Shown here one piece after another: positions 6,900-37,401 of a DNA stretch of 64,000 bases (within the stretch, counting starts at the first letter, position 1; the number at the start of each line of letters is the position of its first letter). A program made the position numbers and the translations under genes. This DNA is from Mytilus galloprovincialis. Taxonomy: Eukaryota; Mollusca; Bivalvia; Mytilida; Mytilidae. Below the pieces are notes generated by a model, which was not told the DNA's origin, did not search any database, and saw only the letters and a list, made by a program, of their open reading frames with translations. The stretch spans positions 30,285,440 through 30,349,439 of the forward strand of contig NC_134841.1 of the NCBI RefSeq assembly GCF_965363235.1, given 5' to 3'.

Positions 6900-7676
6900 G
6901 CCTAATAGGATTCTACACGTACCAATACAGATACAGATTAAGCAAATGTTACAAATTCTACATAAAAACAAACAAATGTACTGGGGAAACTAAAATTTCC
7001 ATTTCCAATAAAAAAAAATGATTATCAAATATCTATGTGACTTTTAAAAGACCACTATGGAAAAATTGGGTACGAAGTATAGGATAGTTGTTTTGAATAT
7101 AAATATAATAAACCAGAAAAATACAACTAGAAGCTGCAAGGATAGTAACAGTGCTTACAAAACTAAAAGTTTAGAATCCTTATATTTTAAAACGGGGAAA
7201 CTCAAGCAGAACTATGCAAAATCTTTTAAAATCAATAAACCATGATAAGGATGTGCATACGGTCCAGTATGATTTAAATGGAAATGAGACATACACAAAC
7301 TAATATAACTGCTAATTATCATTAAGGTTACCATTGGTAATTCATCTTAAACTAATACAATCACAAAGCTTAACATTTAAACTCACCAAAAATTTCAAAG
7401 TCAATAGACTATCACTAGAGGCGAGTTTAGGTGTGGGTGGGTGGAGACATGGTCCCGCCCGCCCTTTTCTGGACAAAAATCGGTTGATTATATATAGGGA
7501 ATCACTGAAGAATGACCGGAGTGGGCCCCCACTTATGATCCGCCACTGATTACCGAGACATGGGGACAAATTCATCTTCATGGAAATGATATATATCAAA
7601 ATGGTAATACAACTGCATAACACTTTTTATTGACCTACCACAAGTTGTTGCCCTTAAACTTAACTTGACAAACACT
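6900..7676. other. Intergenic, mostly featureless, with a MITE at about 7418-7552
   Basis: The stretch 7418-7552 ends GATCCGCCACTG, a hAT-like terminus, and is G-rich at its start; otherwise I see only AT-rich sequence and no supported gene. Confidence 0.4.
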
Positions 7677-7682
7677 AATACA

Positions 7683-7995
7683 GTGTTGACGCCACTGCTG
7701 GTGGAGATTTATTTCCCCGAGGGTATAACCAACCCAATAGTCAGCTTTTTTGTGCTGACATGAATTATCATTGATATGGTTATATTTATAAATTAACCCA
7801 GGCATATATTACCTTAGCTGCATTTGGCAAAACTTTTAGGAATTTTGGTCCTCAATGATCTTCAACTTCGTACTTTATTTGGCATTTTTAACTTGTTTCG
7901 GATTCGAGCGTCACTGATGAGTCTTGTGTAGACGCAACGCGTGTCTGGCGTATATACAAAATTTAGTCCTGGTATCTATGATGAGTTTATTGTTA
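7683..7995 (+). mobile_element. Hammerhead-bearing retrozyme-like repeat, copy A
   Basis: Same order as the copy at 26157-26521: GCCACTGCTGGTGGAG, a GTGCTGACATGAATTATC block, TTTTGGTCCTCAATG, the hammerhead segment, then TTAGTCCTGGTATC. About 40 nt are missing in the middle. Confidence 0.8.
7908..7951 (+). ncRNA. Hammerhead ribozyme, core mutated (GAAA to GCAA)
   Basis: CTGATGA at 7914-7920 and a 4-bp stem II (GTCT/AGAC) are kept, but the second core strand reads GCAA at 7934-7937. That core base is essential in hammerheads, so this copy should be inactive. Confidence 0.75.
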
Positions 7996-8524: not shown

Positions 8525-8769
8525 TTATAATTTACTTCCTTCTGTCTTGTATTTGACAGTAAACTCGTCTTTCGGAAGGGATGTATCCCATTTATTTTTC
8601 ATTATCAACAATGCAGCAAGTCGACCTATTTCATCGCAGGACTTTGCTGCATATCCGTTCCCGCCAACAGCTACGCCTAACTGTGAGTGAATGTGATCAA
8701 TGTAGGGTCTACCTGTTGGAGTTTTCACTATAACACAACAATCACCGACATAAGATGACAGCTTTGGTC
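8525..8769 (-). CDS. Paralogue A exon 6 (aa 338-418, stop)
   Basis: 245 nt including TAA. It carries DCCVIVKTPTGRPYID (candidate covalent-FAD cysteine), GGNGYAAKSCDEIGR (FAD-contact loop) and the C-terminus EGSKL. The acceptor is CTTTCAG. Confidence 0.92.
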
Positions 8770-17069: not shown

Positions 17070-18284
17070 CACAACAACGACAGCCTAGATATTAAACTTA
17101 TACTGTGTTTATCATAATCACGTGATGTTGTATACATAATTACATTTATGTACCAGCAATATATCATATCATCATTTATTGTTTTAACGTATTGAAAGGA
17201 CAGAGTCCTTTAAATTGATAGTGGTATTTTAATTACTTTACTGAGCATGTAAACGAAGCGGCAGGCTCTGTATTTCAACCAAATTGTCTTTTTCTCTGTA
17301 AATAACAACATAGTATCGTAGGCAGTCTATTTATAATTCGCTTATATATATATATATATATATTTATTAACTTGTACAAATTATTAACACGTACTAGACA
17401 TATATCCTGAATATGGTATTAGTATAGATACATATATGTGGGGGAAAAGACTCGACTCGTACCTGAAATTTAAACAAACCATTGATGATATGTACTTCAA
17501 GTATGTATTGTCTATTTCTTTCTAGTCTTATACATTTTAAATTATTTACCTAAACAAAAATTAGTATAATGAATTGGACATAAGTAAATCCTGATTAATA
17601 TTAAATCAGCTCCGAAAAACATTACATAAAAATAAAATGTTAACATAAACATGCAATATTATACAACTTTAACCTTTGCATGAGGTCAATAGGAGAATAT
17701 ATCGACTTTAAAAAGTATATCATCTGAGGACAAAGTATGAGGTCGATACGATAATATATCGACCTAAAATTGGTATATCTACTGTAGTTTCAGACGAATG
17801 TACTTATAATACTAATTGAGTCAATGTTGTTGTGCAAAAAAGAAAAGACGAAAGATGGAACAAATACAAGTAAATATCATTTATCATACAATAGAAGTTT
17901 TTACTGTTCTAACAGCAACTGACCAACTAAAAGTACTGGTATCAAATAAATTAAGCCTTAGAAGTTGCTCACACAAACACGGTGACAACAGACACTGCTG
18001 CTATGAAATGACCTTTTAAATGCACTAAGAGTTATATTGAATACACGCTTTTCTTAGAAATAATATCCGGCTGACATAAAAACATCGTATCTAGTATATA
18101 AATATTTCAAACGCTTTCAATCTTCGGATCAAGTTATAGAAACATAGTAAAAGTAGTAAATTTAGTAAGTGAAACCTGTAAAAAAAACCACGTAATAAAT
18201 TTCATGCGTACGAGGTGCTTTTCTGAATCTCCCTTCATCATGAACGCCTCAAAGCCGAATATTTGAAAGTCAATTGTTCGATTT
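17070..18284. other. Upstream region of paralogue A, no gene seen
   Basis: AT-rich, with an (AT)n run at about 17343-17361 and a short repeated phrase (ATGAGGTC.ATA near 17681 and 17737). It should include the paralogue A promoter, but no recognisable element stands out. Confidence 0.4.
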
Positions 18285-20286
18285 GTTTCTGCGGACAAAG
18301 CTTCAAATACTATAATATTGTGTTTGTATGTAAATCGTATTGCAAAGAGTGTCTTGTAAAATTGTTGGGAATAAATTACACTCAGATAATCCTATATACA
18401 AAGATATATCGTTTGACAAGGAATCATACGTCCTTTGTTGTTCAAAGAAAATTGTATTGAACAGGACGTACCTTGTTTGTATTAAATATATAAGCCTCAT
18501 TACATTCCGTGTATAAGCAACGGTTCAATACTGGCTCATCAGCATGTTCTAAGGACTCGTTCATAAGATTGACAAACACTATGTCCGCAGTCAAAGAAGG
18601 TCTTCAGAAATACGGCGAAACCGTTGACTCATGTAGTGGAATAACCATGATGGATTCTAAAAGACTGTTCAACTGTATAACTTTAAAACTAAATATTTCT
18701 CTGAAATTAGTTCCATAAAAGCCCTTGATAATCAACCCTTTATTTCACCAATTGAAAAATCGTCTTAAGGAAATAATCCACAATGTTTTTCAATATAAAA
18801 ATGGTAGCATATGCTAATTATATAAATGTACTGTTCTTTGATACCATACGGCAAATTGTATTTCAATCTAATTAAAAACCGATCTCTCATCGCTCCTGTT
18901 CCTGATATGTCGCGTCGGAGATCTAAAGAAACCCGCTTTGAGGTCACATGTGAGTGACCTCGAAGGTGTGTCTTTTTCGACCAATGAAATTGAGACTTCC
19001 ACGATCTTGAAAGTTTAACGTAAGGTCAAGGGATGTAACTCATTTTATTTACGAAATCGTCAGTCAAAATAGTTCATAAACTTTTTTGATTGGCTTATTA
19101 ATAGGTCGTCAACTCATTTGCATATCACTATATATTCATAACTTTTAGTTCACTCACATGTGACCTCAAAGCCGGTTTCGTTACATCTCCCACGCGACAT
19201 ATCAGAAAACGGGAGCGATGAGAGATCGGTTTTTAATTAGATTGATTGTATTTATTATTTACATAAGATTTATGAGATCAATCAGACAATTATCAAAAAT
19301 AAGAAAATCAAAGAAGCCAGATAATTTGATTCACATGTATTGATGATGTTCTTTCCATTAAAAAATCTTAATTTTTCTGATTGGTTTCCATTAACATATC
19401 CCCCAGAGTTAGAAATTAAGGATACAACAGACACTGCTTCTGCTGTCTCATTTTTAGACTTATACCTCGAATTTGACACAAGCGATCATCTCAGTACTAG
19501 AATCTATAACAAACAAAGCGATTTTAATTTTAAAATTATAATTTTTCCACATGCTATTAACTTCACCTACATATGGGATATACATTTCCAAACTCATTCG
19601 GTATTCTAGAGCCTGCAGCTACTACTCAAGACATTATAAAACGTCAACAATGTCTGAGCAGAAAGTTGACGAGACAGAGTTTTGTCAAAAAGAGTCCCAT
19701 CCTTTTTCTAAAAAAAATTCAAAAGAACATAGCAAGACCGTGTTGATAAAGATTCAGTATAACTGTTCTGAACTTTTACTGTTGAATAATGTTTTGGTTA
19801 TATTTTTTTTGCGTGGCTCGGCATTAATGAATTTGCTATTGTGTAATTTTTTGTATTCTTGTTTTTTAATTTTTGCGTATGTGCCGAGTCTACAGGTAGC
19901 GTGTCTATACGCAATTTTGTTTTTTGTTGACATAGTTGTTTGTTAGTTATAAGTTACAACACAATGTTGCCTGCTGTACCCCATTTATTTTGGAATTTAT
20001 CCATAATACGACGTTTTGTTTTGCTCACACATTGTTGTCAATATAATGGAATTCTATGCGACTGTCATACAAGGGAGAGGTCTTGCTAGCTTTATATAAA
20101 CCATGGTTTAATCCACAATTTTCTACATCGGGAAATGCCTGTAACAGATTTAGGAATATGACAGTTGTTTTTCGTTCGTTTGATGTGCTTGAGCTATTGA
20201 TTTTGACATTTGGTAAGGGACTTTCCGTTTTTGAATTTTCCTTTCAGTTCAGTATTTTTGCTATTTTACTTTTTGCTTATATACTC
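18285..20286 (+). mobile_element. Penelope-like reverse transcriptase copy 2, interrupted by a MITE
   Basis: It aligns with 23670-25880. The GACAAAGCTTCAAATA block at 18295, the AATAATCCACAATG block near 18770 and the PPELEIKDTTDTASAVSFLD segment near 19400-19460 are recognisable. It continues through YGIYISKLIRYSRAC-like sequence (about 19565-19615) into the shared 3' tail ending at about 20286. Multiple frameshifts are present. Roughly 190 bp of RT, including part of the catalytic region, is missing where the MITE at 18864-19244 sits. Confidence 0.7.
18864..19244. mobile_element. MULE-like MITE, copy 2, 381 bp
   Basis: TIRs of about 90 bp begin CAATCTAATTAAAAACC at both ends and include GGTCACATGTGAGTG. 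A perfect 9-bp duplication ATTGTATTT stands at 18855-18863 and 19245-19253. The interior matches 3420-3610 in the opposite orientation, so it belongs with the element at 734-3700. Confidence 0.88.
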
Positions 20287-20299
20287 CTTGGTGACATTA

Positions 20300-21650
20300 C
20301 ATCTTATCATTAGGCAATACTATACTCTGTAATGCATATTTACAAGGGGCATCGTGCTTTATACAGAGTACCATATTAACAAAGAGAGTAGTTCAAGTTC
20401 AGCATGTTAATTATTGTCAACTAAAGACGACCATTATTGGAGAACAATCAACTTCAAGTTTAATTTGGTACACATGAACACTCATTTTAATTATTTGACT
20501 ACTAAGATGAAAAGAAAAATAAAAATGTTGTCAGGTGCAACCAAAAATAAGAACGATAACCAATTGTATCTTAAGACCATGAAGACAACAATAGTAATTT
20601 GAAAGTATCACTCACTTTCAGTAATTGTCATGCAAATAAGCCTTATTCATTGGATGTTAATCATAAAGCCACACACATTGAAAGCAGTATAGTATGTCTC
20701 CCACAATTACTTCACATTAAGAACTCGTTGAACTTCATTTAGATATCGACTAAATGATATATTAAGTATTTATAATACTAGAGATACTTTCCTTAACAGT
20801 CTGTGAAATAGATACCTAATGTATAGAGTGTACGCTATTATAGATATAAATATAAACACGAAATGTGCATTTTTGTCACTTTGAACTGAGCTTTCTTGGA
20901 AATACCTTGACATGATATATGTTATTGGTTGAAACATTTCCGCGTTCATATTTTACGAAGCTACATGTAAGAAGCGAAGTAAACATTGTAATAGGATTTG
21001 CAGTTACAGGAAGTTTTCATGAAGAAATGAGGATACATGCTTAATTAATTGATCGATAACTGTTTGACGAGGATACGTGTGGATTTTAGACAAATGGTGT
21101 TTATCAAAGAAAAGACTATCATTGTCAACCAAAAAAGACGAATGAACAAACGCGTTACAAACAGCAGTACAAAAAACATCACAAAAAGCAAGTTTTAGAT
21201 TAAGTAAACAAAAGGCATACTAAATTACCGGGTGTTCTGGTAGGCTTCACAGTTCCTGCTAGGATATTCCTAGGCAGTACTTTTACTTAAATCTGGTGTA
21301 ATTCGACGAACGCAGAAAGTTTTCATTTAGATGTGTTCTATTTGTTTGGTAATGGGTTATATTTGTTCAGTTATAATTCCTGGAAGAGCGGTTATTATAT
21401 CTTATTTACCGTTGAAGGCATTTGTTTGTGGACATATATGCTGCATATTGTCGTGAATGCTATTTTATCCTCAACTGAAGAAAAGAGTCGTTTTGATTAA
21501 GACATTTCAATACTCAGATATTTGGCCCTGTCTCTAGTACTAGGTATAAACACAAAAATAGTGATTTTTTGGTTTTTAATTTTCCATTTATAATATTAAT
21601 ATTTAAGCAGATAACTATGCATTGTTAAAACCATATAGAGACATTTCATA
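20300..21650. other. Intergenic between paralogues A and B, nothing recognised
   Basis: No supported ORF, repeat unit or RNA gene; plain AT-rich sequence downstream of paralogue B. Confidence 0.4.
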
Positions 21651-21895
21651 CTATAATTTACATGATTCTTTTCTGAACTTCACTTGAAAAACATTTTTGG
21701 GAATAGTAGAATCCCATATGTTTTTCATCATCATAGTTGCTGCGATTCTTCCAATTTCGTCGCTCGATTTTGCTGCGTAGCCATTTCCTCCAATAGATAC
21801 ACCAAGCTGAGAATGGATTGTATCAATGTACGGTCTTCCTGTTTGAGTCTCAGTTATAACACACCAATCACCGTGGTATCTGTCTAGCTTAACGC
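21651..21895 (-). CDS. Paralogue B exon 6 (aa 341-421, stop)
   Basis: 245 nt including TAG. It encodes GDWCVITETQTGRPYID, GGNGYAAKSSDEIGRIAA and the C-terminus ESCKL. The acceptor is TTCTAG. Confidence 0.92.
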
Positions 21896-24800
21896 CTAGA
21901 AGGAAAACACAAATATAATTCCTATTAGTAATAAGACACCAATCATCGTGCTATCTGGTCCACTTAACGCCTCTAAGAAAAACCAAAAGATTTCTCACAT
22001 GGTTAAAAAAAAAACCACCTCAATTCGCTGTTTATTGCGATCTGCCTTATTGATGCAAATTTCAGAGGTTAAAATAGATATGCCCTCGAATTGTGAAAAC
22101 AAACCAGTTATCTGAACTACGTTTCTGTTATATGATCCGTATACGACTAAACAGAACTAAAACAACAATCAGAAATATAGAATTATTCCAAAAGTTTAGC
22201 AAAAAATGCAAACACAAGTTAGATAACACAAATTTTGAGCAACTCTAACCCTACAATGACCCAGGGATCAACTCCAGTAGTGTGCGAATTACAGATGGGG
22301 AAAATAGTTATATAACGTTACCCTAAATTACAAAACTTTGATATTTTGAATACTAATGCTTGTCTACCTTGGGAAGAGATTACCTTAGCTGTATTAGACA
22401 AAACTTTTAGAAATCTTTGGTCCTCAATGCTCTTCAACTTCGTACTTTATTTTGACTTTTTAACTTTTTTTTTATTCGAGCGTCGCTGATAAGTCTTTGG
22501 TAGACGAAACGCGCGTCTGGTACAAATACAAAATTTTTATCGTGGTATCTATGATGAGTTTATTACAAACAGTTTTAATTTCTCTTTCGCTGCCTTGTTT
22601 CATCAAGAATTAAATCTTAAGAATGGATGAGAATAACAGACCCTTTACAATATTCCTGATCAGCTCTGCTGTAGCATCAACTAATCTGTTATCTCCTCCG
22701 TGACAAAACCATTCTTTTACTTCCTTGGTGGTGGTAAAATGTTTAAAACTGGTATCGTGAAAGTGTCCCAACTTGATATAATATTTACCTAAAAAAACGC
22801 AAAATGCATTAAGATCAAGTTGTAAAAAGTAACCCAATTGGCCATTTGGAATGTTTCTGCAAGTAACTTTTAACACCGTTTTTGTTAGATCTAAACTGCT
22901 TTTGAGGTCACAATATATATCTAGTTAACCGAAAAAAAGAATTGACCTCTTGGTGTCTTTCTTTGGACTGAACATGATTATCGTTTATATATGATGTGGT
23001 ATTTGTCGTCGATGAAATATATCTGTGTTCGTTCTGCAGTTTGCATGTTGTGTCTACTATTATATTATTTGTGCGTTTCTATGTGATGAACAGTCTTGTG
23101 TGTGTCTGTGCTGTATTTCTTTAACGTAGTTTTGTCATTTCATCGATATATTTTTAACATTGTCATAAAAGGAAACTTTAGCCATAAAAACAGGTCCAAC
23201 CCACACTCGTTTCTTAAAATGTTCGGTACCAAGTAATGAATATGGTAGTTGTTATCAAATAGCTCGTTTCTATGTATATTGACGTTTGTTTTTGTTGCAT
23301 TTCAATCTTCCTGTTGTTCCTTTGTTTTTCTCAGATAGTTTATGTGTTTTCCTTGGTTTTAGTTTGTAATCCGTATTTTTTTTTCATCGATTTGTGTCCT
23401 AAGTTTAGAGAACCCCAACACATCAATTGGAACCATAACTTCAAAATAATTATGGATTCCATTGAGGACTACGCCAGAGTATGGGCTAAGCGAGAAGAAG
23501 TTGAACTGGGCACTTTGTCAGAATGGGTTAAAACTATCAGGTCTCTGATAAAACGTCGCATTCACAAGTTGAAAAACTGTGTGAACGATCGACCAAAGTC
23601 CGTTTTCAGAGACAAAGAGGCCATGAAATGTCTATCATCTCTTCATGATAAGTATGTTGTTGTTCCTGTGGACAAAGCTTCAAATAATATTGTCTTTGTA
23701 TGTAAATCGTATTACTACGAATGTCTTGTAAAAGAATTCGGTATAAAGGAGCACTCAGGTAATTCCACATACAAAGACATATCATTTGACAAGGATGAGA
23801 TTTTAGCAAATCATAAGTCCTTCATGGCTTCAATAAACATTACATTGAACACCAAATCGGAGGACTTATCTTGTTTGTATTGGATACCAAAGCTTCATAA
23901 AATTCCGTACAAACAACGGTATATTGCTGGCTCATCTTCATAAAGAATTGTCCATTAGATTGACTAAAATTCTATCCGCAGTGAAAGGGGGTCTTCAGAA
24001 ATACTATGAAACTGTTTACTCGCGTAGTGGTATTAACCATATGTGGACTCTTAAAAATTCTAAAGAACTTCTAGACAATTTTAAATCTCGGTCTTTTTCT
24101 GAAGTTAGTTCTATCAAAACTTTTGATTTTTCAACCCTGTATACCACAATTCCTCATGTGAAATTGACAAATCGCCTAAAAGAAATAATCCACAATGCCT
24201 TTCAACATAAAAATGGTAGCATACGCTATCAATTTATTACTTTGGGATTTCATAAGGCATATTTCGTTAATAGTGACAAACAAAAAGGTAAAACATGCTA
24301 CACAGAAGAACAAGTGGTCAGTATGCTGGAGTTTCTTATCGACAACATATTTGTTGAGTTTGGAGGTAGACTTTTTCAACAAATTGTCGGCATTCCTATG
24401 GGAACGAACTGCGCGCCTCTCCTTGCTGACCTTTTCTTATTTTCATATGAATCGGAGTTCCTTCAGACACTTGTCAAAAACAAGAAGATCAAAGAAGCCA
24501 GGTTATTTAATTTCACTTTCAGATATATTGATGATGTTCTTTCCATTAACAATCCGAATTTTTCTGATTGGGTTCCATTAATATATCCACCAGAACTAGA
24601 AATTAAAGAGACAACAGACATGGCTTCCTCTGTCTCATTTTTAGACTTATACCTCGAATTTGACATACACATGCAGTCATCTCAGTACCAGAATCTATGA
24701 CAAACGAGACGATTTTGATTTGGAAATTATCAATTTCCCCCACCTTAGTAGCAATATACCAACTTCACCTGCATATGGAATATAAATTTCCCAACTTACT

Positions 24801-27800
24801 CAGACTTTGTAAAACGTCACCAGCGTCTGAGCAGAAAGTTGATGAACCAGGGGTATGTCAAAGAACGTCTCGTCCATTTTCTAAAAAAGTTCATCGGAAG
24901 GTACCAAGAACTTGTTGATAAATATTCCGTATCAACTTCACAAATAATACACGATGGTCTTGAAGTATAGATTTTGCGTACTGACGTTGTTTATCATCTT
25001 AATAACGTGTTATATTATTGTTTAATTTGTCTTTATTAATATTACTTTTACTGTTAAGTCTGTTTGTTTTAGATATCCTTTTGACGTAACTCTGTGCTTA
25101 TGTATCCCATCATACTTTGAACAACAAAATTATTTTATGATGTGACTCTGTACCTATGTATCTTGTCATACTTTGAATGACAAAATTATTTTATTTATTA
25201 ATATTACTTTTACTGTTAACCCACTTTTTGTGATATACATTTGACGTGACTCTGTACTTATGTATCCCGTCATACTTTGAACCACACTATTATTTTATTT
25301 ATTGTTATTACTTTAACTGTTAAGTATCTATTTTGCGTGACTGTATTTATGTATCCCGTCATACTTTGAACGACAAAATTATTTCATGTCTACCTGTGCG
25401 AATTTCAAACGCGCAATTTTACACCATTACTCAAAACCCTCCATCCTTGATGGGTGCATTTTACATAGACAAATAAAATCGTATAATATAAGCAAAATGA
25501 GGATGTTATTTGATGAATGCCTTTTTGTGCTTCTTCGTTACATTTGTTGTTTTTATAGTGATTAAGATGATAACACAATGTTGACTGCTGTACCCCTATT
25601 TTTGACATTTTTACCTATTGTGTCTGTTTGTTTTGTTCACGCATCGGTGACAATATAATGGAATTGTTGCGACTGTCATACAAGTGAGAGGTTTAGCTAG
25701 CTATAAAACCAGGTTCAATCCACCATTTTCTACATTTGAAAATGCCTGTACCAAGTCAGGAATATGACAGTTCTTGTCTATGCGTTTTTGATGCGTTTTG
25801 TTATTTGATTTTGCCATGTGATTATGGACTTTCCGAATTGATTTTCCTCTGAGTTCAGTATTTTTGTGATTTTACTTTTGAACACCAGTATACTATTGTT
25901 GCCTTTATTTGTAGGTTCAAATTTGTGGCATGACTGTTAAACAAACATTCAGCAACAGATGCAAAGTGATGAATTGAGGCCTACATAACATGTAAGCACA
26001 TTGCAGACGGCAAATGCCATGTAACTCCCTAAAACACATTCCATTTTCTTTGAACCATTACAAAATTTACCACTGGTTAGTTTATCTTTTCATCCCCAAG
26101 TGATTAACTGTTTTTCCTCTCTCCGCCGTCAATTCAACTCCTTTTCGTAGTGCCTTATTTACTACCACTGGGTCGATGCCACTGCTGGTGGAGATTTATT
26201 TCCCCGAGCACAGTAGTCAGCACTTTTTGTGCTGACATGAATTATCATTGATATGGTTATATTTATAAATTATATGTTTACAAAATTTAGAATTTTTGAA
26301 ATATTAAGGCTTTTCTACCTCAGGCATGGATTACCTTAGCTGGATTTGGCAAAACTTTTAGGAATTTTGGTCCTCAATGCTCTTCAACTTCGTACTTTAT
26401 TTGACTTTTTTTTTTTTTTTTTAACTTTTTTGGATTCGAGCGTCACTGATGAGTCTTTTGTAGACGAAACGCGCGTCTGGCGTATATACAAAATTTAGTC
26501 CTGGTACCTATGATGAGTTCATTTGCTACGATATGAATAAAAATAAAAATCACAAAAATACTGAACTCCGAGTAAAATTCAAAACGGAAAGTCCCTAATC
26601 AAATGGCAAACAAAGGATAAAATACATCAAACGAATGAAAAACAACTGTCATATAACTGACTTGGTACAGGCATTTTCAAATGTAGAAAATGGTGGATTA
26701 AACCTGGTTTTATAGCGCTAAACATCTCACTTTCATGACAGTCGCATCAAATTCAGTTATTTTTACAACGATGCGTGTACAAAACAGAAATCATCGGTAA
26801 AATAGTCAAAATATGGTTACAATAGTCATCACTGTGTTACAATCTCAAGACAAAAAACATATACAAAAACACATCGCTTCATCCTCTTTTGGAATCGTCT
26901 GCGTTCCAGATGATATGCTGAGTGTTTCCGCCACTTGACTGCCCATTATACGAAGACATAGTGTCGTCGGGTCGTTTCCCAGTTGAGATTCTGACTCACA
27001 ATGGGAAAACTTATATAATATAATAAAAGTCAAATTGTTTCCAGTATATTATCACATATTTTGTACTGATATGTACGTTTTTGTATGGCCAAAAATAGCC
27101 GGAAGTCACTTGGTTATCAGCCCTCGAAATCCATATCGAGCCCCCGAATTCAACTTCCGGTAACCTGTCAATCATGTAAACAAGTTGTCATTCGAAGCAG
27201 CTAAACGATCAGGAGAGACTTCTCACAGATCAAATGACGATGCATGTACATTCATACAAATGAACTCGAGAACACAATTGAAAAGAAATTAAGAAAGTTA
27301 CGAATCTGCTGTAGTAGAAAAAAATTATAAAAATCAACAGCGGAAATCACAAAAGTTCCCGTAAAATTTTGACGTCATAAAGAATTTAGAAAATATATGA
27401 CGCCACAATGGAAAAGTGAGTGTTGTATGACATCGAAAGTTCAAGTGGAACATATTTCCTCATCTAAGTAGCGATATGATGTATTCTTCCTCTGTATTAA
27501 TTCGAAATGTAACACTTTAAGTCGTTTAATATTTACAATTCTGAGAATTAATATATTTATTGTTAATTATTTGTTAAACTTTTCACAAAACTTTGTTTAC
27601 TCACTATGATGTTACTTTGTTAACTCACTGAGATGCGAACTTTGTTAACTCACTGTCAGTGATGCATTTTTTTATTTTTTTCGTTAAATGTTTTTTTGAA
27701 TTTTTGTTGAAAATATCAAACATAATTTGGTAGATGCTATCTTTTTTTCTCATGCGTGAAAATATGTGATAAATAGATTATTACATGTCATTTTTAATAT

Positions 27801-30800
27801 GGACCGTGGTATCAACCCACGACCCATATCAAGCCCTCGGGCTAAAGCCCTCTGGCTTGATATGGGAGTCTAGGGCTGATACCAGGGCCAATGTGGAAAA
27901 TGTTATGTAATAATCTATAATTATCAACAGCCTTATCAAACTATTTAGAATATTTAATTTTGTGTCAGCCTAATCTGGATTTTATATGGTCAATAATTTC
28001 CGTTCTTTCACGTTTAATGGGTTTTTATCGAAATTCAGTCCACTTTAAAATGAATATTATACAGCTGTCATTTTTTTTAAGTGATATACCAAGTAAATAT
28101 TACTTCGGCATAGAAATGAAAAACAAAAATTGTATTTTCGTTAGCGATTTAGTAGTTGGACTTATCTTTGAAGCAGTTATTTATTTCTTTTTCAGTCATT
28201 TCCAAGCTAGACGTAAACACATTTAAATACATTACCATCTGGATATTTCACTGGGGGTAGCATGTACCAACTAATATGGTCACCTTCAGAACGAGGGAAT
28301 GATTTGGTCCAATCTTTCGCTCCTTTACCAGAATATAAGACGCTTGGCATTTTCCTGAAAAATGAAGTGTTTTGGTATATTCCAATAGTACAATTTTAGG
28401 ACACAGCAATATCTATTTTTCATTTCGGCTTCCCAAGACTAAAAAATATGAAACAATTCAATTCAGAAAGCTAACGGATTAATGTATAGCAAAACCATTT
28501 ACGAAAAACTAAAATGACAGACATGAACTAACGACAATCACTGACAATCAGTCCCGCACGCAGAAGATGGGGTTTTTAATTATAATGTCTGTTTGTTTTG
28601 TTCACACAATGTTGTCAATATTATGAAATTTTATGCGACTGTCATACAGGTGAGCGGTTTGGCGTCCTGCAAAACCGGGTTGAATCCGCATTTTTTTTCT
28701 TGAAAAATGGCAGTTTTATAAAAATAGTCCGTTTACAAGTATGTTGGCATTTGCTTTTTGTATACATATATAGCAGTTCAGTGTTTCTGATATTCTATTG
28801 TTTCCCTCTCATAGTTGATGTGTTTCTCTCGGTTTTGGTTTTTGACACGGATTTGATTTCGCTGAATCTATTTACTCTTGAACAGCGGTATACTACTGTT
28901 GTCATGGTATACTAATATATTCATTCTGTTTCTTTAAGCTCTCTTAAAGTTTCAAAGGTTTGAGTTATGTAACATGTCTATAGCTTGGGCCGTACCCGAA
29001 TTTATCAGATTTATTTCTCGGTTATTACGCTGTTGTCATATTCTCGAGCAAATATGATTTGTTGTTTTAAGTCTCTTTAAACTTTTCTATCTCAATAGGT
29101 CTACAATATGTATAACTATAATCAACGGGTTCGTTATAATGTGGCTCGCTACGCTCTCGTAAGATTTCAAAGGTTTCGACTCCTTACTTTGAGTTTTAAC
29201 GACTTTGACTCAGGGGTAAGCCTCGCACGGACGGTATGACCTCAACTGACTACATACAGAAGGCTGCTTATATATCATCGTTGAGGATTAGATCATACCG
29301 TTAAATCGGGCAATACTATATTCATTATTTGTTAGTAACAAGCGGTATTCAAACTCTCAGCGATTACCTTTGATGTTTGTTAGTTCTCTGATTATAAGGG
29401 GCGGAACTTCATATGGACCTGACACGATTTACTTAATCCATTCTTATATGTATTCGTTTCCTTCGAATCCGTCACAGAACTAACGAATGAACATACAACC
29501 CAACCACTGTATAACGCCAACTTAAAGAAGTTGGATATCATAAGAAAACTGCAAAAATATCAATTCTAGAGGTAGAGTTGTCAAACTGAATTTTTATGGA
29601 GCAATTTAATATTCGTTATTTTACCTTATTCTTCCCAAATCAGATTCTGACAGTTCAACCTTTGCAACAGTCAAAGGACAGAGGTTAACATCTAGTTGTA
29701 ATTCATCTGGAAGAAGTTCTCTAAACGCGGTGAATGCACCGGTTGCTAATAAAACTTTCTTCGCCAAAATCTGTGAAGCGTCCGTTGAAATACACATAAT
29801 GTATTCACCGTTTCTCTCAATGCGCCTTACGCGATTTGCTACCTCTGGTAAAAGAGTACAACCTTGGGCTGTTGCTTTAGTGATCTGGGCACGGATCAAA
29901 CTTCGAGGACTAATATTCCCAGCGTCTTTGAATTCATAAACTGCATCGTCTGATAGAGAAACATGAAGAAAGGAAAATTTTTCTTTCAATGCTGCATTTG
30001 TTAAGTACGTGGCATCCATTTTCTGTGTCTTCACTACATCTGTTACTTGGTTAAGAAATTTGGACTCCTTCTCTCCTATCATTAAACATCCAATTTCATC
30101 ATAGAAGGGAATTCCTGTAAATAATAAGCATAACTACGTCATTCTCCATTTATAGAAATGATTTTATTACCATTCTGATTTTCTTCTCGTACTTCACTTT
30201 ATTGTTAGACTTTTGATAACTAATTTCTTAATTATCTTCAAAATAAGCGTGTCAATTTTAGGACGCATGAATTGAGTGCACAAGATTTATCATAATAATA
30301 AGATAATGTAACAAATAAACCGAAGGTTGCCGATTCCTCTGAAAAAGTCAACCTTTTTCTGTGCTGTTTCTGTATTGTTTTTTATGCTTCCAAAATGTTT
30401 ATTTTATGGTAACCCTGATCTCTCATGTCGAACTTCGCTAACATGATGTGCTCCATGAATTCAGATTCAAACGTTGATATCATATCACAATATTCAAGCT
30501 AAGTACGTTTTTGTTTATCTTAATGGTGTCTTCTCCCTTAAAATTCATTCACAATTTTAGGTCTTCTGAAAATAAGTCATGTAATCACATCTTTATTAAG
30601 AAATTACAAAAGAAATTTTTAACTTTAACTGATTTGAAATGTTCTAGTATTAATCAAGTTACCTGTGTCTCTTTCTAGTTGTCTGTACATAGCTATTGAT
30701 TTCTGTGCTAACATTGCCCACACTGGATCTGGGTCTGTGCATCGTGTTATTCTTCCCTCGTCATAATGGCAGCCAAATATATCTCTGTTATCATTCACAT

Positions 30801-31936
30801 TTCTACTCTATAAAACAAGTTATTGATTACTGAACACTGTATATATTTTGTTATGTTTGTTGAAGAGCGAAAACTATGTGATTTGTTGGAGAGAGAAATA
30901 AAGGCAACAGTAGTATACCGGTGTTCAAAAGTCACAAATCGATCGAGGGAAAACAATTACGGGTTACAAACTAAAACCGAGGGAAACACATCAATTATAA
31001 GAGTAAAACAAAGGAACAACAGGAACACTGACGTTCAACAAAAACAAACGCCAATATATATATAGAAACAAACTATTTCATAACAACTACCATACTACAT
31101 TTGAAAATGCCTGTTCCAAGTCAGGATTAGGGACTTTCCGTTTTGAATTTTCCTCGGAGTTCAGTATTATAGTGATTTTACTTTTTGTTACAGAACATTT
31201 TAAGAAAAATGGTGGGTTGTTGAACCTGATGTAATGGCTAGCCAAACCACCCAGTTTATGACAATGTTAAAAATATCGCTAAAATGACAACACTACATGA
31301 TAGAAATACAGCACAATCACACACAAGAAAATTCATCACAGAAACGCACAAACAAATAGTATAATAGACGACACAACATGTAAACCGCAAAATAACAACG
31401 AACATATTCCATCAACGACAAATACCACATGATATAAGAAACAGTGGATATGATATTTTTTTATCTGAAAACAGGTCAATTATTTTTTTAAACATAAATG
31501 CCTGTATAGTGATTCTACCTGAGACTATTATAACACATAGTTCCAAATTTAATTGCACTTTAAACTGGACATTGGAAGAGGTCATGGTAAATCAAAGGAA
31601 CTGTTCGTATTGCCAGTTATTACTTTTTCATATCATTTTTGTAATACAGAAAATATTATCAATTAACTCTACATTAGATATCGCATTCGTGTGAAATTTG
31701 AGAAATATTACAGATCATGAGTATCCACCCTTTAAAATGTTGTCATTTTAAAGAGAAAGTGAAGCATCTAATAAGTGTGTTTTGAGTATAAAAGTAACTT
31801 ATATTCATATTCGAACCTTTGGTTCTTCCGGTCCAACCAAACAAACGCTTCCCCATTTCGATGCATGACTTGCAGCTGCAGTTCCAATCAAACCTGCTCC
31901 TACAATACACAGATCATATATCCGTTCTCCGTTCAT
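21651..31936 (-). CDS. Peroxisomal FAD-dependent amine oxidase (sarcosine-oxidase-like), paralogue B, 6 exons, 421 aa
   Basis: Join on the minus strand: 31936-31817, 30807-30663, 30114-29625, 28354-28236, 22788-22642, 21895-21651 (1266 nt, 421 aa plus stop). Exons 2, 4, 5 and 6 have exactly the lengths of paralogue A (145, 119, 147, 245) and all intron phases match, so the pair arose by tandem duplication. Visible motifs are GAGLIG at residues 13-18, HYDEGRITR at 54-62, LLATGAFTAF in exon 3, YYIKLGH with Lys297 in the oxygen-activation position, Cys352 at the covalent-flavin position and GGNGYAAKS. The protein ends in CKL, an accepted variant of the peroxisomal signal. No stop, frameshift or bad splice site was seen, so the gene looks functional. 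Intron 4 (5.4 kb) contains a reverse-transcriptase copy and a hammerhead-bearing repeat. The substrate is unknown; assignment to the sarcosine-oxidase-like DAO group is by motif. Confidence 0.9.
22323..22565 (+). mobile_element. Retrozyme-like repeat, copy B (5' part missing)
   Basis: Matches the 3' two-thirds of the 26157-26521 copy, from GATTACCTTAGCTG through TCTATGATGAGTTTATT. It lies in intron 5 of paralogue B, antisense to the gene. Confidence 0.75.
22480..22523 (+). ncRNA. Hammerhead ribozyme, core mutated (CTGATGA to CTGATAA)
   Basis: Stem II (GTCT/AGAC), GAAA and the CGC/GCG stem III are intact, but the first core strand is CTGATAA at 22486-22492. A G-to-A change here removes an essential core guanine. 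Confidence 0.75.
22642..22788 (-). CDS. Paralogue B exon 5 (aa 292-341)
   Basis: 147 nt, beginning GKYYIKLGHFHD. It ends AGG followed by GTCTGT, a weaker donor than in A but at the identical phase; reading on past it is possible for 15 or so codons. Confidence 0.85.
22925..23400 (+). repeat. Dispersed repeat preceding RT copy 3
   Basis: The same sequence recurs in reverse at about 30898-31445 (for example TAGTTTTGTCATTT / AAATGACA and TTGACGTTTGTTTTTGTTG). It supplies the first ~40 codons of the long ORF at 23272 but is not RT coding. It could be the element's 5' UTR or a separate repeat. Confidence 0.5.
23400..25885 (+). mobile_element. Penelope-like reverse transcriptase copy 3, most complete
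   Basis: Two overlapping frames (23400-23943, then 23924-24700) join by one frameshift near 23930. In order: an N-terminal basic helix region, DKYVVVPVDKASNNIVFVCK (a substrate-strand motif of this RT group), LYWIPKLHK, TFDFSTLYTTIPH, GIPMGTNCAPLLADLFLFSY, FRYIDDVLSI with both catalytic Asp, and PPELEIKETTDMASSVSFLD. The ORF breaks after about 24660. The 3' tail has four ~115-130-bp repeats (TCTGTACTTATGTATCCCG type, 25080-25380) and the conserved terminal segment. It lies antisense in intron 4 of paralogue B. Penelope-like is inferred; no GIY-YIG endonuclease is visible. Confidence 0.75.
26157..26521 (+). mobile_element. Hammerhead-bearing retrozyme-like repeat, copy C (best preserved)
   Basis: Starts ACCACTGGGTCGATGCCACT, continues through GGAGATTTATTTCCCCGAG, GTGCTGACATGAATTATC, GATTACCTTAGCTGG, a poly-T run and the hammerhead, and ends TTAGTCCTGGTACCTATGA. 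Size and layout fit a linearised monomer of the short hammerhead retroelements (retrozymes) described in animals, mussels included. It lies in intron 4 of paralogue B, opposite strand. Confidence 0.82.
26440..26483 (+). ncRNA. Hammerhead ribozyme, type I, intact core
   Basis: Stem I GCGTCA / TGGCGT (6 bp with wobbles), CTGATGA at 26446-26452, stem II GTCT-TTTGT-AGAC, GAAA at 26466-26469, stem III CGC/GCG with no spare loop, then TC and the predicted cleavage after 26477. All invariant core bases are present. The loopless self-complementary stem III suggests work as a dimer or tandem repeat. Confidence 0.85.
26545..26765 (-). repeat. Solo 3' tail of the Penelope-like element
   Basis: Reverse-oriented copy: CAAAACGGAAAGTCCCTAAT, TGACTTGGTACAGGCATTTT and GGTGGATTAAACCTGGTTTT are complements of the tail at 25660-25880. 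Confidence 0.65.
27774..27917. mobile_element. Palindromic MITE, 144 bp
   Basis: Inverted ends TAGATTATTACAT / ATGTAATAATCTA enclose nested inverted blocks (ATATCAAGCC / GGCTTGATAT and CCCTCGGGCTAAAGCCCTC at the centre). It could form a long hairpin. Related GCCCTCGAAATCCATATCG sequence lies at 27118-27160. It is in intron 4 of paralogue B. Confidence 0.65.
28236..28354 (-). CDS. Paralogue B exon 4 (aa 252-292)
   Basis: 119 nt, encoding RKMPSVLYSGKGAKDW and WYMLPPVKYPDG. The acceptor is TTTTTCAG and the donor GTAATG. Confidence 0.88.
28590..28920 (+). repeat. Composite 3' tail repeat
   Basis: Begins like the Penelope-like tail (ATGCGACTGTCATACAGGTGAG), then switches to the dispersed repeat shared with 23225-23400 (GATGTGTTTCTCTCGGTTTT), ending GTATACTACTGTTG. 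It is in intron 3 of paralogue B. Confidence 0.5.
29625..30114 (-). CDS. Paralogue B exon 3 (aa 89-252)
   Basis: 490 nt, one codon shorter than in A. It encodes GIPFYDEIGCL, SPRSLIRAQITKA and KKVLLATGAFTAF. The acceptor is TTTACAG and the donor GTAAAA. Confidence 0.92.
30663..30807 (-). CDS. Paralogue B exon 2 (aa 41-89)
   Basis: 145 nt, encoding NRDIFGCHYDEGRITR and ending QLERDTG. The acceptor TTTTATAG was chosen over a nearby TAG because it keeps the paralogue length and phase. The donor is GTAACT. Confidence 0.87.
30895..31445 (-). repeat. Inverse copy of the repeat at 22925-23400, with an embedded tail fragment
   Basis: 30895-31080 and 31225-31445 read in reverse match 23225-23400 and 22925-23215. 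Between them, 31085-31195 is a plus-strand tail fragment (ATGCCTGTTCCAAGTCAGG...GATTTTACTTTTTG). It is in intron 1 of paralogue B. Confidence 0.5.
31817..31936 (-). CDS. Paralogue B exon 1 (aa 1-40)
   Basis: The ATG at 31936 gives MNGERIYDLCIVGAGLIG. It is four residues longer at the N-terminus than paralogue A. The donor GTTCGA follows AACCAAAG (phase 0). Confidence 0.88.
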
Positions 31937-32089
31937 CACTGTGTATTTAGGTAAATAATGATAATGCATCTATGACGTATTAGTTTAAATAATATAAAAT
32001 ATACTAGTCATCAAAAGAAACTTTACAACATTATGTGTATTATATATCAGATTATTTTTAATTTAATATGATATCTGATTAGTAATCAT

Positions 32090-33560
32090 ATGTCTGTTCT
32101 ATGTTTCATTGGAATTTCAAACAAAGACGAAGAACAGGATATTCAATGGCTGTATTGGATAGCTAAACTACTAAGTGTCTTTACAAACAACGGTATATTT
32201 TTTGGTCCTCCAAATGCTAGATACAAAACCTTTTTCAAAATTATTACCATCAATCTTATCAGCAATCAAAGGCGGGCTTCAAACTTATTGTAACCCCACC
32301 TATTCTAGTGTTGGCGTGAATCAGATATAGATACTACAAATTTCAAAAGATCTTTTAGAGTACATACAATATAAGACTCTATCGTCTTGCAATAGTATAT
32401 TTAAACATTTGACTTTTCTATTCTTTACTCAAATATTCCCCATTCTAAACTAAAATACAAATTGAAAGAGTTGGTCCTGCTTTGTTTCATAAAAAAATGG
32501 CCAACGTAGAAACAAGTATCTTATCTTAGGGAGGAATACATCCTACTTTGTAAAAACTCACTCTGATTCTAACAAAACAAAACTCTGAAACTTACATTAT
32601 CAAGATGCTTGATTTTTTTCTTGCCAACAATTTGTTTCGTTTGGAAGACGTGTTTTTCGATAAACAATCGGCATTCCCATGGGAACCAACTGTGTCCCTC
32701 TTCTTGTCGACTCTTACCTTTGTTCAAACATGAACACCTTGGAGAAAAAGAAAAAGAAGTTACCAGTATTCTTTACTTGTAAGCAGTATTCTTTAACTTG
32801 ACTTTCCGCTACATAGATGATGTTCTCTCACTAAATACGGGTAATTCAATATTTGGTGACCATGTTGAGCGCATCTATCTAATCGAAATAGAGATAAATG
32901 ATACAACGGATACAGTTAAGTCTGCCTCATATTTTGACTTACATCCAGAAATTGACAATGAGGGTCGGTTGAAAACAAAACTTTAAGACAAAAAAGATAA
33001 TTTCAACCTCCCAATTGTGAACTTTTCGTTTGTATGTACAAACATTCAAGCAGCGCCTGCATACGGAGTTTATATCTCCCAGTTAATACGATACTCCAGG
33101 TTTTGCATTTCCTATATTTTTTCCCTTGATATATGGTTAATATTCACATGGAAACTATTAAACCAAGATTCCCAAGTGGTGAAGTTGAAATCATCCCTTC
33201 GTAAATTATAAGAGTTGTTTTGGCCGTTACGAAATATCCGTTTCACAGATGATAGCGGATCTGTTTCTGAATTCGTAACTACATAATCCTGTCCCCTTTT
33301 CCCGAATGCGACATTCCTAATTAGACCGTGGCTTATGACCGGGTGTGTATTAAAATGAGCAACACGACGGGTGTCACATGTGGAGAGGATCTGCTTACCC
33401 ATCCGGAGCACTTGAGATCACCCCAAGGTTTTGATGGGGTTCGCGTGGCTTAGTCTTTAGTTTGTTATGTTATGTGTGTGCACTATATGTATTATTCCAA
33501 CCCAGAACCTTTGATGTGCAGCCTGACATAGAATCATATGTATTATTCCAACCAAGGACC
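32090..33560 (+). mobile_element. Reverse transcriptase copy 4, different subfamily, decayed
   Basis: Degraded WLYWIAKL near 32145, IGIPMGTNC-type coding near 32670, FRYIDDVLSLNTGN at about 32800 with both catalytic Asp intact, then EIEINDTTDTVKSASYFDLHPEID and AYGVYISQLIRYSR at about 33055. Many frameshifts. It differs clearly from copies 1-3 in sequence. It lies between paralogue B and CRTC. Confidence 0.7.
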
Positions 33561-33599
33561 CTTGATGTGCAGCATGACATGTACAAATAAAACAATACA

Positions 33600-34427
33600 T
33601 TGTGATTTGTAACAGAAAAACATTTTTGTTGTACATTGAAATGAAATATTAAAAGTTCAGACAGATGTTATTATGATAGCGCTACACACGTTTCTTGTCT
33701 TTATTTTATATAAGTCCTTTAATTTAATTGTTTTCTGTTAAAATTATTTCAAACTCTACATCTTTTCAGTTGACGAGTATATATGTTTAATGTAAACGTT
33801 ATAGTTTAATGAAACATGTCAGTTTAACCTATTTAATACTTATGGATATGGGGTAAATACATGTATGTAGATATATACGCTGTATCAACCTGAAAATGTA
33901 AACAAAGGATTTAATAGTTAAATACATGTGTGCACCGTATATATATATATATATATATATATACGGTGCACACATGTATGCTTTGTTAATGTTAACCATT
34001 GATTTATATAAGTTGAAAGTTGTGAAAGCAAACCTGTTTGAAGGATTGGTTATGGAAATTTTGACTAATAGACAATCAGTGTTGTAAGATGCTGTGCGTT
34101 ATGACTTCATTTACCCTGTAATAATTTAAGAGTTATAACTTTTTCCTATAGCGTTGTCACTGCTTCAGTTGACTACAAATCGAATTTGTAGAAAATCTTA
34201 CAAAAAAGTATCGGTCCTAATATTAACAGGGTGCATATTTTTTTGAATCGACTGAATCATTGTTTCATTTGGTGCATTTGGTATTCCCATTGGGAAAAGT
34301 GTGATGAACCGTTTTTCGTCAACTTGTTCCAGTTTTTGCATAAAGAAAACATAAAAATAACTCGGAAAGGGGGGGGGATAAATTAAGCTAGCATCGTTCA
34401 TTAACGTTTCACGATATACAAGAAGAA
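33600..34427. other. Intergenic, AT-rich, containing a TA-cored hairpin
   Basis: Only the inverted repeat at 33922-33979 stands out: arms ATACATGTGTGCACCGTAT either side of an (AT)n core. Confidence 0.45.
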
Positions 34428-34580
34428 TTTGTGGCCCTGAATGCTCCTTAACTTCGTACTTAATTTGGTCTTTTTTTAAACTGTTATGGAATCGAGCGTT
34501 ACTGATGAGTTTTTTGTAGACGAAACGAGCGTCTGGCGCAAATACACAATTTCAATCCTGGTATATATGAGGAGTTTATT
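34428..34580 (+). mobile_element. Retrozyme-like repeat, copy D (3' part)
   Basis: From TGGCCCTGAATGCTCC to CCTGGTATATATGAGGAGTT, matching the 3' half of copy C. Confidence 0.72.
34496..34539 (+). ncRNA. Hammerhead ribozyme, core intact, weakened stem III
   Basis: CTGATGA 34502-34508, stem II GTTT/AGAC with one G-T wobble, and GAAA 34522-34525. Stem III CGA/GCG has a terminal A-G mismatch, followed by TC. Catalytic bases are complete, so activity is possible but likely poor. Confidence 0.72.
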
Positions 34581-35489
34581 TCCTACCTGATTCAAAGTTC
34601 AACTACGCTGGTCGCATCTATGTCATTGGACTTGAAAATAAAAGTTACCACAAATACAGTTAGATGTATCATGACTTACAGACAGGTAGAAAGAAATCGG
34701 CAAGGAGAATTTTTTGATAACCGAAATGCGAAATGATGCAAATGAGCTTTCAATTTTATGAAACAACAATCTAGCAACACGTGTACAGGATACATATTTT
34801 CAAGTTGACACGGTATAGCATGGCATTAATTTTAGTTCCTATTAAAAAAGTCAGCGAAAGACGATGGCTACTGTTTTGATGGACGTTTTTTAACCTTGAA
34901 GAAATTACTTAGAAAGTTAACAGTTTATATGAGATGCCCCTCAATTTCTTTCCCAAAAATGTCTGTCTTCTCTTTTTAGATAGAAATATTTTTTAATTCC
35001 GGATTAGGAATAAAAAAAAAATCCTCCGATCAGAACAAATTGAGAATTTTGTTAAGAACCTTCAATACAATATTTGTAAAACAGTTTAGTGCGTCCAGAG
35101 TGATTTTCTATGTTTACTTTCATCGGATCGTTCAAGGATTCGGAAAGGAATCCAGAGTTGATTGTTCAAAGGAGTTGCAATCATGTCATACACTGAAGTA
35201 AAAAGTCGAATGTTATAGGCGCATGTTTGATTATTCGATTGATTGTTCTCTGCTGACTGTCAAGCGACAAGTTGAAATTATAAAAAAATATCTCGGGTTT
35301 TGTTTCAGGTAGATGACGGATTGACAATAATCAAATAAATAGGTTCTGCAGAATAGGTTGACCAGAATGAAGGGCTCGAATTTCCACTTAAACTGGGGAA
35401 GAAGGGTATAGACATGGACTGAAATTTTCTAACATTAAGGATAACAGAAAGAGTCGTTGCATGGGTTACTAGTAATATATCAAAGATAA

Positions 35490-35610
35490 TTCAATACACC
35501 AGACGCGTGTTTCGTCTACATAAGAATCATCAGTGACGCTCAGATCAAAATTGTTATATAGCCAAACAGTACAAAGTTCAAGAGCATTGATGACCCACGT
35601 GAAGAGGGTG
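35490..35610 (-). mobile_element. Retrozyme-like repeat, copy E, minus strand
   Basis: Read in reverse: AATGCTCTTGAACTTTGTAC, TTGAT, GAGCGTCACTGATGA, GTAGACGAAAC, GCGTCTGGTG. The hammerhead portion spans 35497-35540 with CTGATGA and GAAA present, but the first stem II pair and one stem III pair are mismatched. Confidence 0.65.
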
Positions 35611-37290
35611 TAGCACTCTCCCAACACTGGACATCTTATTAAACGTCCACATTCCAATCGAATGATTCTGTGAACTTGTGCATCCGACGATAACCAAACT
35701 AACGCCCTTCTTAAGCATATGTTTACTGCTATATCATGGAGGTCACACATGTCCATACCCAAGTCAACCTCTGAGGTTTATTCAAACAAATAAATAAATC
35801 CAACCTCAACTTAGGTTCAGAAAAACAGGTCGATCGATGGAACGAAGGATAGTCTATTTAGACTACAACTTTGTAAAGGGGATACTTAAATTACGTTATT
35901 GGATCCTATAGTATTGAGTGACATGCTGCATAATCAAACGAACACTAGACACCCCTTCTGTGCGAGTTTTACGGTTGGCGATATAGGTCTCGATGGTCAC
36001 ATTTATATAATTGGTGAGGCAGTAAATCACGGTCTCACTGCAATAATGGAGCCACGCCAAATTCAAGATATGCTTGTCAGTCACTGTCTATATCAGCCAC
36101 TGTCGAAATAAGAAGATATGTCTTTTACTCCACGTCGATAAAAGATATGTCTATCAATCGCCAACAAAAGACTATAATCGTGGCTAAAAGTTTATTGTAT
36201 TTTTGTTTTACTGGTATATATGATGAATTTTCCGTTGCGTATTTAGATTAAGAGTGTCGGATATTGTGAGCAGTAGAAACGAAACGTTCAGTGCTTTGAT
36301 TCTGAAGGTCAGCATGATAACATGATTTGAAATGATTATCACCTTTCGGTTACAGCCGTCCAAAGTGTTTTAAAATCGTCAAGAACTGCACACATTCCGG
36401 GCAAAAAATGAAAAGCAGTTAAATGATGACAGACCCTTCACCGTGAACATGTTCCTGACTGGCCTCGGACTGTTATAAGGATATGACCTATCGGTATTCT
36501 GCCGATATTGGGTGGTGTTTTCGGTAGGATCATTTATTTATATCTATTGCTAAGCATTTTTTTTTTTTGCGTTTTAGTTGGCAGATATTTATCATTTCGC
36601 TTTTTTACAATATATTATTTGTCAAAATAAGCTAAGAAATTTCGCTGATAACTTATTCACTTGCAAGTGAACAATTCGACCTCATTGGATCCGTATTCAT
36701 GTGACCTTTAATTAAATCCCTCAGCTAGAGATTGGTTACGCATGTATTAAATGGGTGTTTAGCCACTATAAATCAGTCCACTCGGGAAATGCATATGAGT
36801 GTCAGCATTGCGAAATGTTGAAAGTGAAACTGCGTTTCTTTAGTATATTTCAGGACCTCCACAATTCGATATTAGAACATTATTTAATCGATAAACAATA
36901 TGAACAAAATATGGCAGAAACAAACTTGAAATGCAGCCAAGACGTCTATGCCTTTGTAACCTAACGGCTAGTGGACGAACTGGCAGTGTGGCCGAAACGT
37001 CTCGATAGCTGTAATCTTAGATTGTATGATAACATTAAATATAAATGAGTTCGAGATTTTAAATCTTTATATATCATTAATGTGACTGAATTTTTAACTG
37101 TTAAAGCCTTTTATTGTTACTGATTTTCTTTTAAATTATGAAAATTCAGCATTATATAGATTAGCAGGTGCTTGTTGTGCTGCCACCTATCAAAGATCAC
37201 ATGTATTACACGGATGGATTTGATTGGATAACAATAGATTAGGCCCCCTGCGAAGTCAAAATCATAACAAGCTTGTCCTTTTCTGCCATC
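35611..37290. other. Upstream region of CRTC, no gene recognised
   Basis: Short ORFs here show no convincing family. The stretch must contain the CRTC promoter and 5' UTR, but I see no full CRE (TGACGTCA), TATA box at a clear distance or other decisive element. 36965-37010 has GGCCGAAACGTC, a phrase met in retroelement tails. Confidence 0.4.
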
Positions 37291-37401
37291 ATGGCGAATC
37301 CACGGAAGTTCAGTGAAAAAATAGCTTTACACAATCAAAAACAAGCAGAAGAAACTGCTGCTTTCGAGGCAATAATGCGGGATGTTACGCCTGTTACGAA
37401 G
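37291..37401 (+). CDS. CRTC: CRTC exon 1 (aa 1-37, CREB-binding domain)
   Basis: The ATG lies in the context GCCATCATGG. It encodes the CREB-binding helix through [15 protein letters not shown]. The donor GTTTGT follows 37401 (phase 0). The 5' UTR lies directly upstream, but its start cannot be fixed. Confidence 0.95.

Follow-up and report, generated by a model that had tools for sequence, protein, structure and literature searches.

An intronic hammerhead ribozyme of Mytilus galloprovincialis as part of a probable retrozyme copy, and the insertion ends of its family

A type I hammerhead inside a dispersed repeat

A hammerhead ribozyme with a complete core lies at 26440-26483 on the forward strand of a 64-kb stretch of Mytilus galloprovincialis DNA (the window, meaning the whole stretch analysed), where it is antisense to a flavoprotein gene and within one of its introns. 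Direct reading identified all of the core elements (CTGATGA, GAAA, and GTC), a stem I of six pairs, two of which are wobbles, a three-pair stem II (GTC/GAC) closed by a 7-nt loop, and a stem III that lacks a loop and consists of an A-U pair plus CGC/GCG. The conserved core, three stems, and open stem I that characterize type I members of Rfam family RF00163 are all present. The RF00163 covariance model aligned along its positions 1-45 at a score of 32.5 bits, for which E is 4.7e-6 when 901 nt are searched and 3.4e-4 for the whole window. This is 1.5 bits below the Rfam gathering score of 34, and at that curated score no RF00163 match was reported in the stretch containing the motif. Although the match falls under the gathering score, the covariance-model check and the direct reading both uphold the hammerhead proposed in a first-pass annotation of this DNA, which had also correctly described its type I class and its weak, loopless stem III. 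The match is not attributable to chance, because the motif recurs in homologous repeats, RF00163 matches are found elsewhere in the genome, and none of 14 control genomes searched with RF00163 had a match.

The Rfam alignment places the GTC triplet such that self-cleavage is predicted between C26477 and T26478. The same annotation expected that a monomer would cut poorly, and nearest-neighbour folding of the window ribozyme alone agrees: under a model that ignores tertiary contacts, the competent monomer fold is at -4.4 kcal/mol compared to -14.1 for the best fold (a gap of 9.7), and the pair probability of stem III is about 0. However, a cloned genomic mussel repeat is described in the main text of Cervera & de la Pena 2020 (PMC7229834) as self-cleaving with a kobs of ~0.1 per min, so poor monomer cleavage should not be assumed. 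Since release of a unit needs two cuts, circular RNA is unlikely to arise from the window's single copy alone.

The ribozyme is located near the 3' end of a repeat of ~365 bp at about 26156-26523 (+), a single rather than tandem copy of approximately one full unit with a GC content of 34.8%. This repeat matches 7674-7991 over 26161-26523, and a unit from a tandem array of the same genome aligns from 26156 to 26507. It is dispersed, as had been claimed, with further copies identified in the window by self-comparison and others genome-wide. Five window copies bear a hammerhead, four on the forward strand and one on the reverse. Besides the copy at 26156-26523, they comprise 7674-7991 (+), whose ribozyme at 7908-7951 is broken in the GAAA box (GCAA), and three 5'-truncated copies: 22328-22564 (+), with the core change CTGATAA in its ribozyme at 22480-22523 (25.9 bits in Rfam); 34425-34586 (+), with a complete core and an altered stem III at 34496-34539 (24 bits); and about 35486-35597 (-), delimited as 35494-35595 by self-comparison, in which the ribozyme at 35539 has lost the first stem II pair. 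The core is complete in two of these five (26440 and 34496), and core or stem II lesions are found in the other three. Comparison with a sister unit added a short copy at 10783-10839 (-) from which the ribozyme is deleted (unit positions 227-260 joined to 325-352), and a weak, old copy of 70% identity at 16425-16542 (+). A random genome sample of five 9-kb pieces (45 kb) contained no retrozyme copies, and the window therefore looks rich in them.

These features resemble those of the non-LTR retrozymes of mussels. M. galloprovincialis has been reported to carry ~5000 type I hammerheads, usually in repeats of ~350-390 bp, and the likeness extends to low GC, absence of LTRs, thousands of copies, and tandem arrays (PMC7229834), although the window copy is single and the comparison is with the published description rather than by alignment to the published unit. 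The agreement in unit size, hammerhead type, tandem copies, and low GC supports the link to short animal retrozymes that had been suggested for this locus. Unit sizes of ~365 bp in the window and 352 bp in a tandem array elsewhere (L006), each with a type I hammerhead, are inside the 150-450 bp retrozyme range, and the GC content of the window copy is under the 50% retrozyme criterion. ARAGORN, searching for a tRNA-like head, found no tRNA genes in 26000-26700, where a decayed head could escape it. The LTR retrozymes of plants are likewise ribozyme-bearing, non-autonomous elements with circular RNA (PMC4918200), but they have type III hammerheads, LTRs, a primer binding site, and a polypurine tract (PMC7229834). 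Hammerhead repeats of newt and axolotl share the weak monomer activity that a dimer helps, although these are vertebrate repeats, likened here by description and not by sequence (PMC7229834). We conclude that 26156-26523 is very probably one ageing single copy of an animal non-LTR retrozyme, a non-coding mobile unit of ~350-365 nt with a type I hammerhead, spread via tandem transcripts, circles, and a borrowed reverse transcriptase. The element is of an already known kind and not a special intronic ribozyme.

The retrozyme family and its ribozyme pairs

The assembly around the window (1.385 Gb in 331 contigs) contains at least 37 RF00163 matches, 29 of them above the cut-off, among 74 scored of 224653 first-look candidates; all of these genome counts are lower bounds. 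The unit of the main subfamily is 352 bp, and the family occurs both as single 5'-truncated copies and as short tandem arrays. Tandem copies were found in L006 (3.3 units of 352 bp), L018, L025, and L038, with the window's own subfamily being tandem in L025 (1222-1748) and L038 (4-512, -). A divergent tandem subfamily at L020:1028-1516 has ~68-70% identity to the main unit, its stems changed yet paired. Counted irrespective of the ribozyme, the main subfamily's 22-nt 3' tail has 9030 exact matches in the genome (4427 + 4603), and the reversed pattern has none. Among the first 100 tail places listed, 14 neighbouring pairs are spaced 338-361 bp apart, and 32 of the 99 neighbours, these 14 pairs included, lie <10 kb apart compared to ~7 expected for an even spread.

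Searches of viral contig collections returned no matches, and those of genome contig collections returned two, L001 and L002. The first was rejected as a family member, being a chance match with the rest of the motif absent. The second, at L002:202-272 in a contig labelled as a cyanobacterial MAG, is a piece of a retrozyme that is truncated on its 5' side and has the 3' end of the family; it is most likely animal DNA in a MAG bin.

Covariation was assessed in an alignment of 69 of 78 extracted ribozyme copies (65 distinct), after exclusion of 24 of 102 family hits for poor ribozyme coverage. The alignment omits the truncated or broken copies L002, L007:1226, L013:1656, L014:2364, and L016:1128, as well as four from L039, which duplicates L013. 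Standard pairs occupy 94.9% of the pair cells over the 69 copies, many of which were retrieved with the Rfam model and so are biased towards pairing. Two-sided changes were observed at 7 of 13 pairs in 13 cells, compared to a mean of 2.2 in 500 shuffled alignments, none of which had as many. Slid structures scored much worse than the hammerhead pairing. Nine of the 13 two-sided cells stem from three rows of one divergent subfamily (L020:1128, L020:1476, and L013:2774), the first two belonging to one array. These rows were found by similarity beside other copies and not via the Rfam model. Their pairs are altered in all three stems, with stem III still palindromic; L020:1128 retains every pair, while L020:1476 and L013:2774 each break one stem II pair. 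In the aligned sequences, the relatives covary at type I hammerhead pairs. A hairpin upstream in the retrozyme unit likewise has paired changes.

Insertion ends and the copied RNA

To describe insertion ends, the unit was numbered to finish in its tail, which places the cut site after position 312 of 352. The 3' end lies at unit positions 350-352, or 38-40 nt past the cut site, in 32 of 37 ribozyme loci (31 of 36 without the duplicate L039). The 5' starts scatter over unit positions 51-296 in 35 loci, with L039 and L020 set aside; the chain of the latter (start 4, 2.51 units) enters a neighbouring divergent array, and its own array starts near 178. Copies range in length from 0.20 to 3.56 units, with 23 shorter than one unit and 14 longer (1.18 to 3.56). 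Five loci end outside 350-352: L025 and L030, which belong to the window's subfamily and whose tail reads differently; L005, which looks diverged; and L015 and L027, which end earlier. Because the 37 loci were picked by their ribozyme, copies ending at the cut site are disfavoured in this set.

Eight further arrays were found by the unit rather than by the ribozyme, with flanks unlike one another and unlike those of the 37 loci. They start at 310, 136, 298, 287, 322, 15, 13, and about 1, and six of the eight have their 3' end at the same fixed place (five by BLAST and L089 by eye), while the other two run past the fetched piece. Metazoan retrozymes, where they have target-site duplications, have ones of more than 4 bp. 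Perfect duplications of 7-10 nt were detected in 3 of the 37 loci, scarcely more than chance would give, as random places in the same loci scored 4 to 10 (25 on a repeat). By eye, 7-nt flank matches were seen in two of the eight arrays. Eight of the 37 loci have their 5' start at 224-235, but no preference for this stretch is claimed, since short copies are the commonest. Two individual loci have breakpoints near the cut. In L075, an array starts 2-3 nt ahead of the cut site. On the reverse strand of L037 (2085-2393), a unit is missing positions 269-312, a gap whose far edge falls exactly at the cut site and which is possibly a template jump at a cut 5' end.

A DNA search with the L006 unit had suggested a fixed 5' end for arrays, but this was rejected because the 30 loci concerned (L040-L069) share junction flanks and represent copies of one larger repeat. 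All are linked by like flanks on both sides except L065 (left only) and L049 (right only). L060 aligns with 11 others tested at about 94-98% likeness, seven of them over about 3.3 kb, and arrays of 1.3 to 5.3 units occupy one place inside the larger repeat (e.g., L060:1387-1856). Reading frames in this repeat do not exceed 106 aa in L060 or reach 90 aa in L048. These loci were omitted from the endpoint count, several of the 30 rows being neighbouring units of one array. L006, which is grouped with them by its junction flanks and whose left flank matches L060 over only 37 nt, was counted as one locus. Since L040-L069 hold 1.3 to 5.3 units between shared flanks, tandem number can change at the DNA level, and arrays alone are therefore no proof of copying from circles.

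As read from the genome, fixed 3' ends combined with scattered 5' ends would imply reverse transcription that is anchored at the 3' end and truncated at the 5' end. An end fixed ~40 nt past the cut would require, in place of the ribozyme-cut linear unit, a re-closed circle or uncut RNA as template. We therefore consider, with opinion evenly balanced, that target-primed reverse transcription, anchored at the 3' end, inserts mussel retrozymes by starting at one fixed site ~40 nt beyond the cut and proceeding over 0.2 to 3.6 laps of a cut-spanning RNA, the template being a closed circle or an uncut multimer and not a ribozyme-cut linear monomer. The model put forward in PMC7229834 has a circle primed and then copied by the reverse transcriptase of a LINE, a Penelope-like element, or another element. 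The parts of that paper considered here do not describe fixed 3' and scattered 5' ends, and 'truncat' and 'tail' have 0 occurrences in its main text; a literature search covering few subscription papers found no paper on the insertion ends of animal retrozymes. In PMC7761336, retrozymes of this kind are seen as a possible new SINE family. If true, fixed-end insertion would be genomic evidence for a step only proposed in the parts of PMC7229834 considered here.

A SINE-like route could produce much of the same pattern. Here, target-primed insertion would proceed from uncut linear transcripts, with ribozyme cutting and circles being a side path or a limit on the element. A fixed 3' end lying ~40 nt past the cut and the 23 of 37 copies below one unit need no circle, and the unfavourable monomer fold predicted by the folding model points the same way. 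However, the 14 of 37 insertions longer than one unit need a template that crosses unit junctions, although tandem parent transcripts could supply one. Circles are also abundant in mussel tissues, where they are described as the main retrozyme RNA form (PMC7229834). We regard the SINE-like route as possible but doubtful.

The reading that we favour is copying from circles, taking cleavage and circle formation from print (PMC7229834) and the ribozyme motif, repeat family, tandem arrays, fixed 3' ends, and scattered 5' ends from the present observations. Transcripts of tandem copies would be cut by their own ribozymes into unit RNAs, which a host ligase would close into circles. A reverse transcriptase from another element would then prime at one site located ~40 nt past the cut, copy from less than one lap to several, and leave 3'-anchored, 5'-truncated insertions. 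The window copy at 26156-26523 would be one such insertion of about one lap. While the window locus itself is ordinary, the family's many insertions in one genome preserve in their ends both the identity of the RNA template and the starting point of its copying.

PMC7229834 leaves the autonomous mover of metazoan retrozymes undecided, with LINEs and Penelope-like elements as candidates. A 3' tail shared with an autonomous element would identify the mover by computation alone. Of 15783 RVT_1 candidates in the genome, 150 were scored and gave at least 150 places, four of which were selected as having unlike match ranges and frame lengths. Their 3' stretches end in short tandem repeats, and the retrozyme tail was found in none of the four. 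Tail copies without an upstream ribozyme are few in the window and fetched loci, and look like decayed retrozymes or loose matches. Thus, a partner reverse transcriptase with a shared 3' tail was not found among these four places, the window, and the fetched loci.

The host intron and alternative origins

The hammerhead might instead be a terminal remnant of a Penelope-like element. Such elements are present in mussels (PMC7229834), and their pseudo-LTRs carry minimal type I hammerheads that, like the one in the window, have a very short stem III and are proposed to act as dimers (PMC7761336). According to the same source, theirs lie in the pseudo-LTRs of coding elements, whereas the repeat examined here recurs as a short unit of 352-365 bp in single copies and arrays. 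In a Pfam scan of 19001-34000 (three reverse-strand frames) and of another six reading frames, no match to a Penelope-type protein, which would have an RT with GIY-YIG, was found. We consider this origin improbable.

The intron containing the retrozyme copy runs from 28235 to 22789 on the reverse strand (5447 nt), with GT..AG ends that were read directly and flanking exons paired with those of a tandem paralogue. The gene encodes a sarcosine-oxidase-like FAD oxidoreductase and is one of two tandem paralogues with the Pfam domain DAO, at 8528-17084 and 21654-31969 (-), in which six exon pairs were recognized; exons were inferred from the tandem paralogue and not from RNA. DAO was detected on the exon at 29621-30133. 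In PDB searches, one exon of the first paralogue hit monomeric sarcosine oxidases, while the same exon of the second, the host of the element, had no matches. Exon 5 of the second paralogue is without the GTAA donor found in the first. The annotated position, antisense inside an intron of an intact flavoprotein gene, therefore stands with respect to the intron, which encloses the forward-strand element, but the description of the gene as intact is put in doubt by exon 5.

The same intron holds a decayed LINE-like element at 23263-25879 (+), with an RVT_1 match (E = 0.0016) below the cut-off. A 3' fragment of the same family at 26540-26848 (-), an 81% match to 25562-25879 in inverse orientation, lies tail to tail with the retrozyme copy. 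Further pieces of this LINE-like family are located at 5237-6790 and 18283-20273.

The surprise implied by an intronic antisense location does not hold up against five copies in 64 kb on both strands (four + and one -), three of them with lesions. Two of the five ribozyme-bearing copies are in neighbouring introns of the same gene, and three are beyond the exons found. The intronic antisense position of the retrozyme looks incidental. Being single and antisense in an intron, the window copy most likely has no effect on the host gene, and its ribozyme is most likely intact through less decay by chance, not through retention for a local function. Recruitment of an intronic antisense ribozyme to regulate the flavoprotein gene is extremely unlikely, for while the ribozyme is complete and intronic, it is on the strand opposite to the gene, one core-lesioned copy sits immediately 3' to the next exon, another lies 3' to the final recognized exon of the tandem paralogue, and nothing distinguishes the copy at 26156-26523.

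Two other features of the window were recorded. A near-perfect AT-rich palindrome at 33918-33983 had many microRNA matches below their gathering scores and is probably a simple repeat. Exons of a CREB-regulated transcription coactivator are present at 37243-37659 and 60793-61293 (+), with the Pfam TORC N and middle domains.
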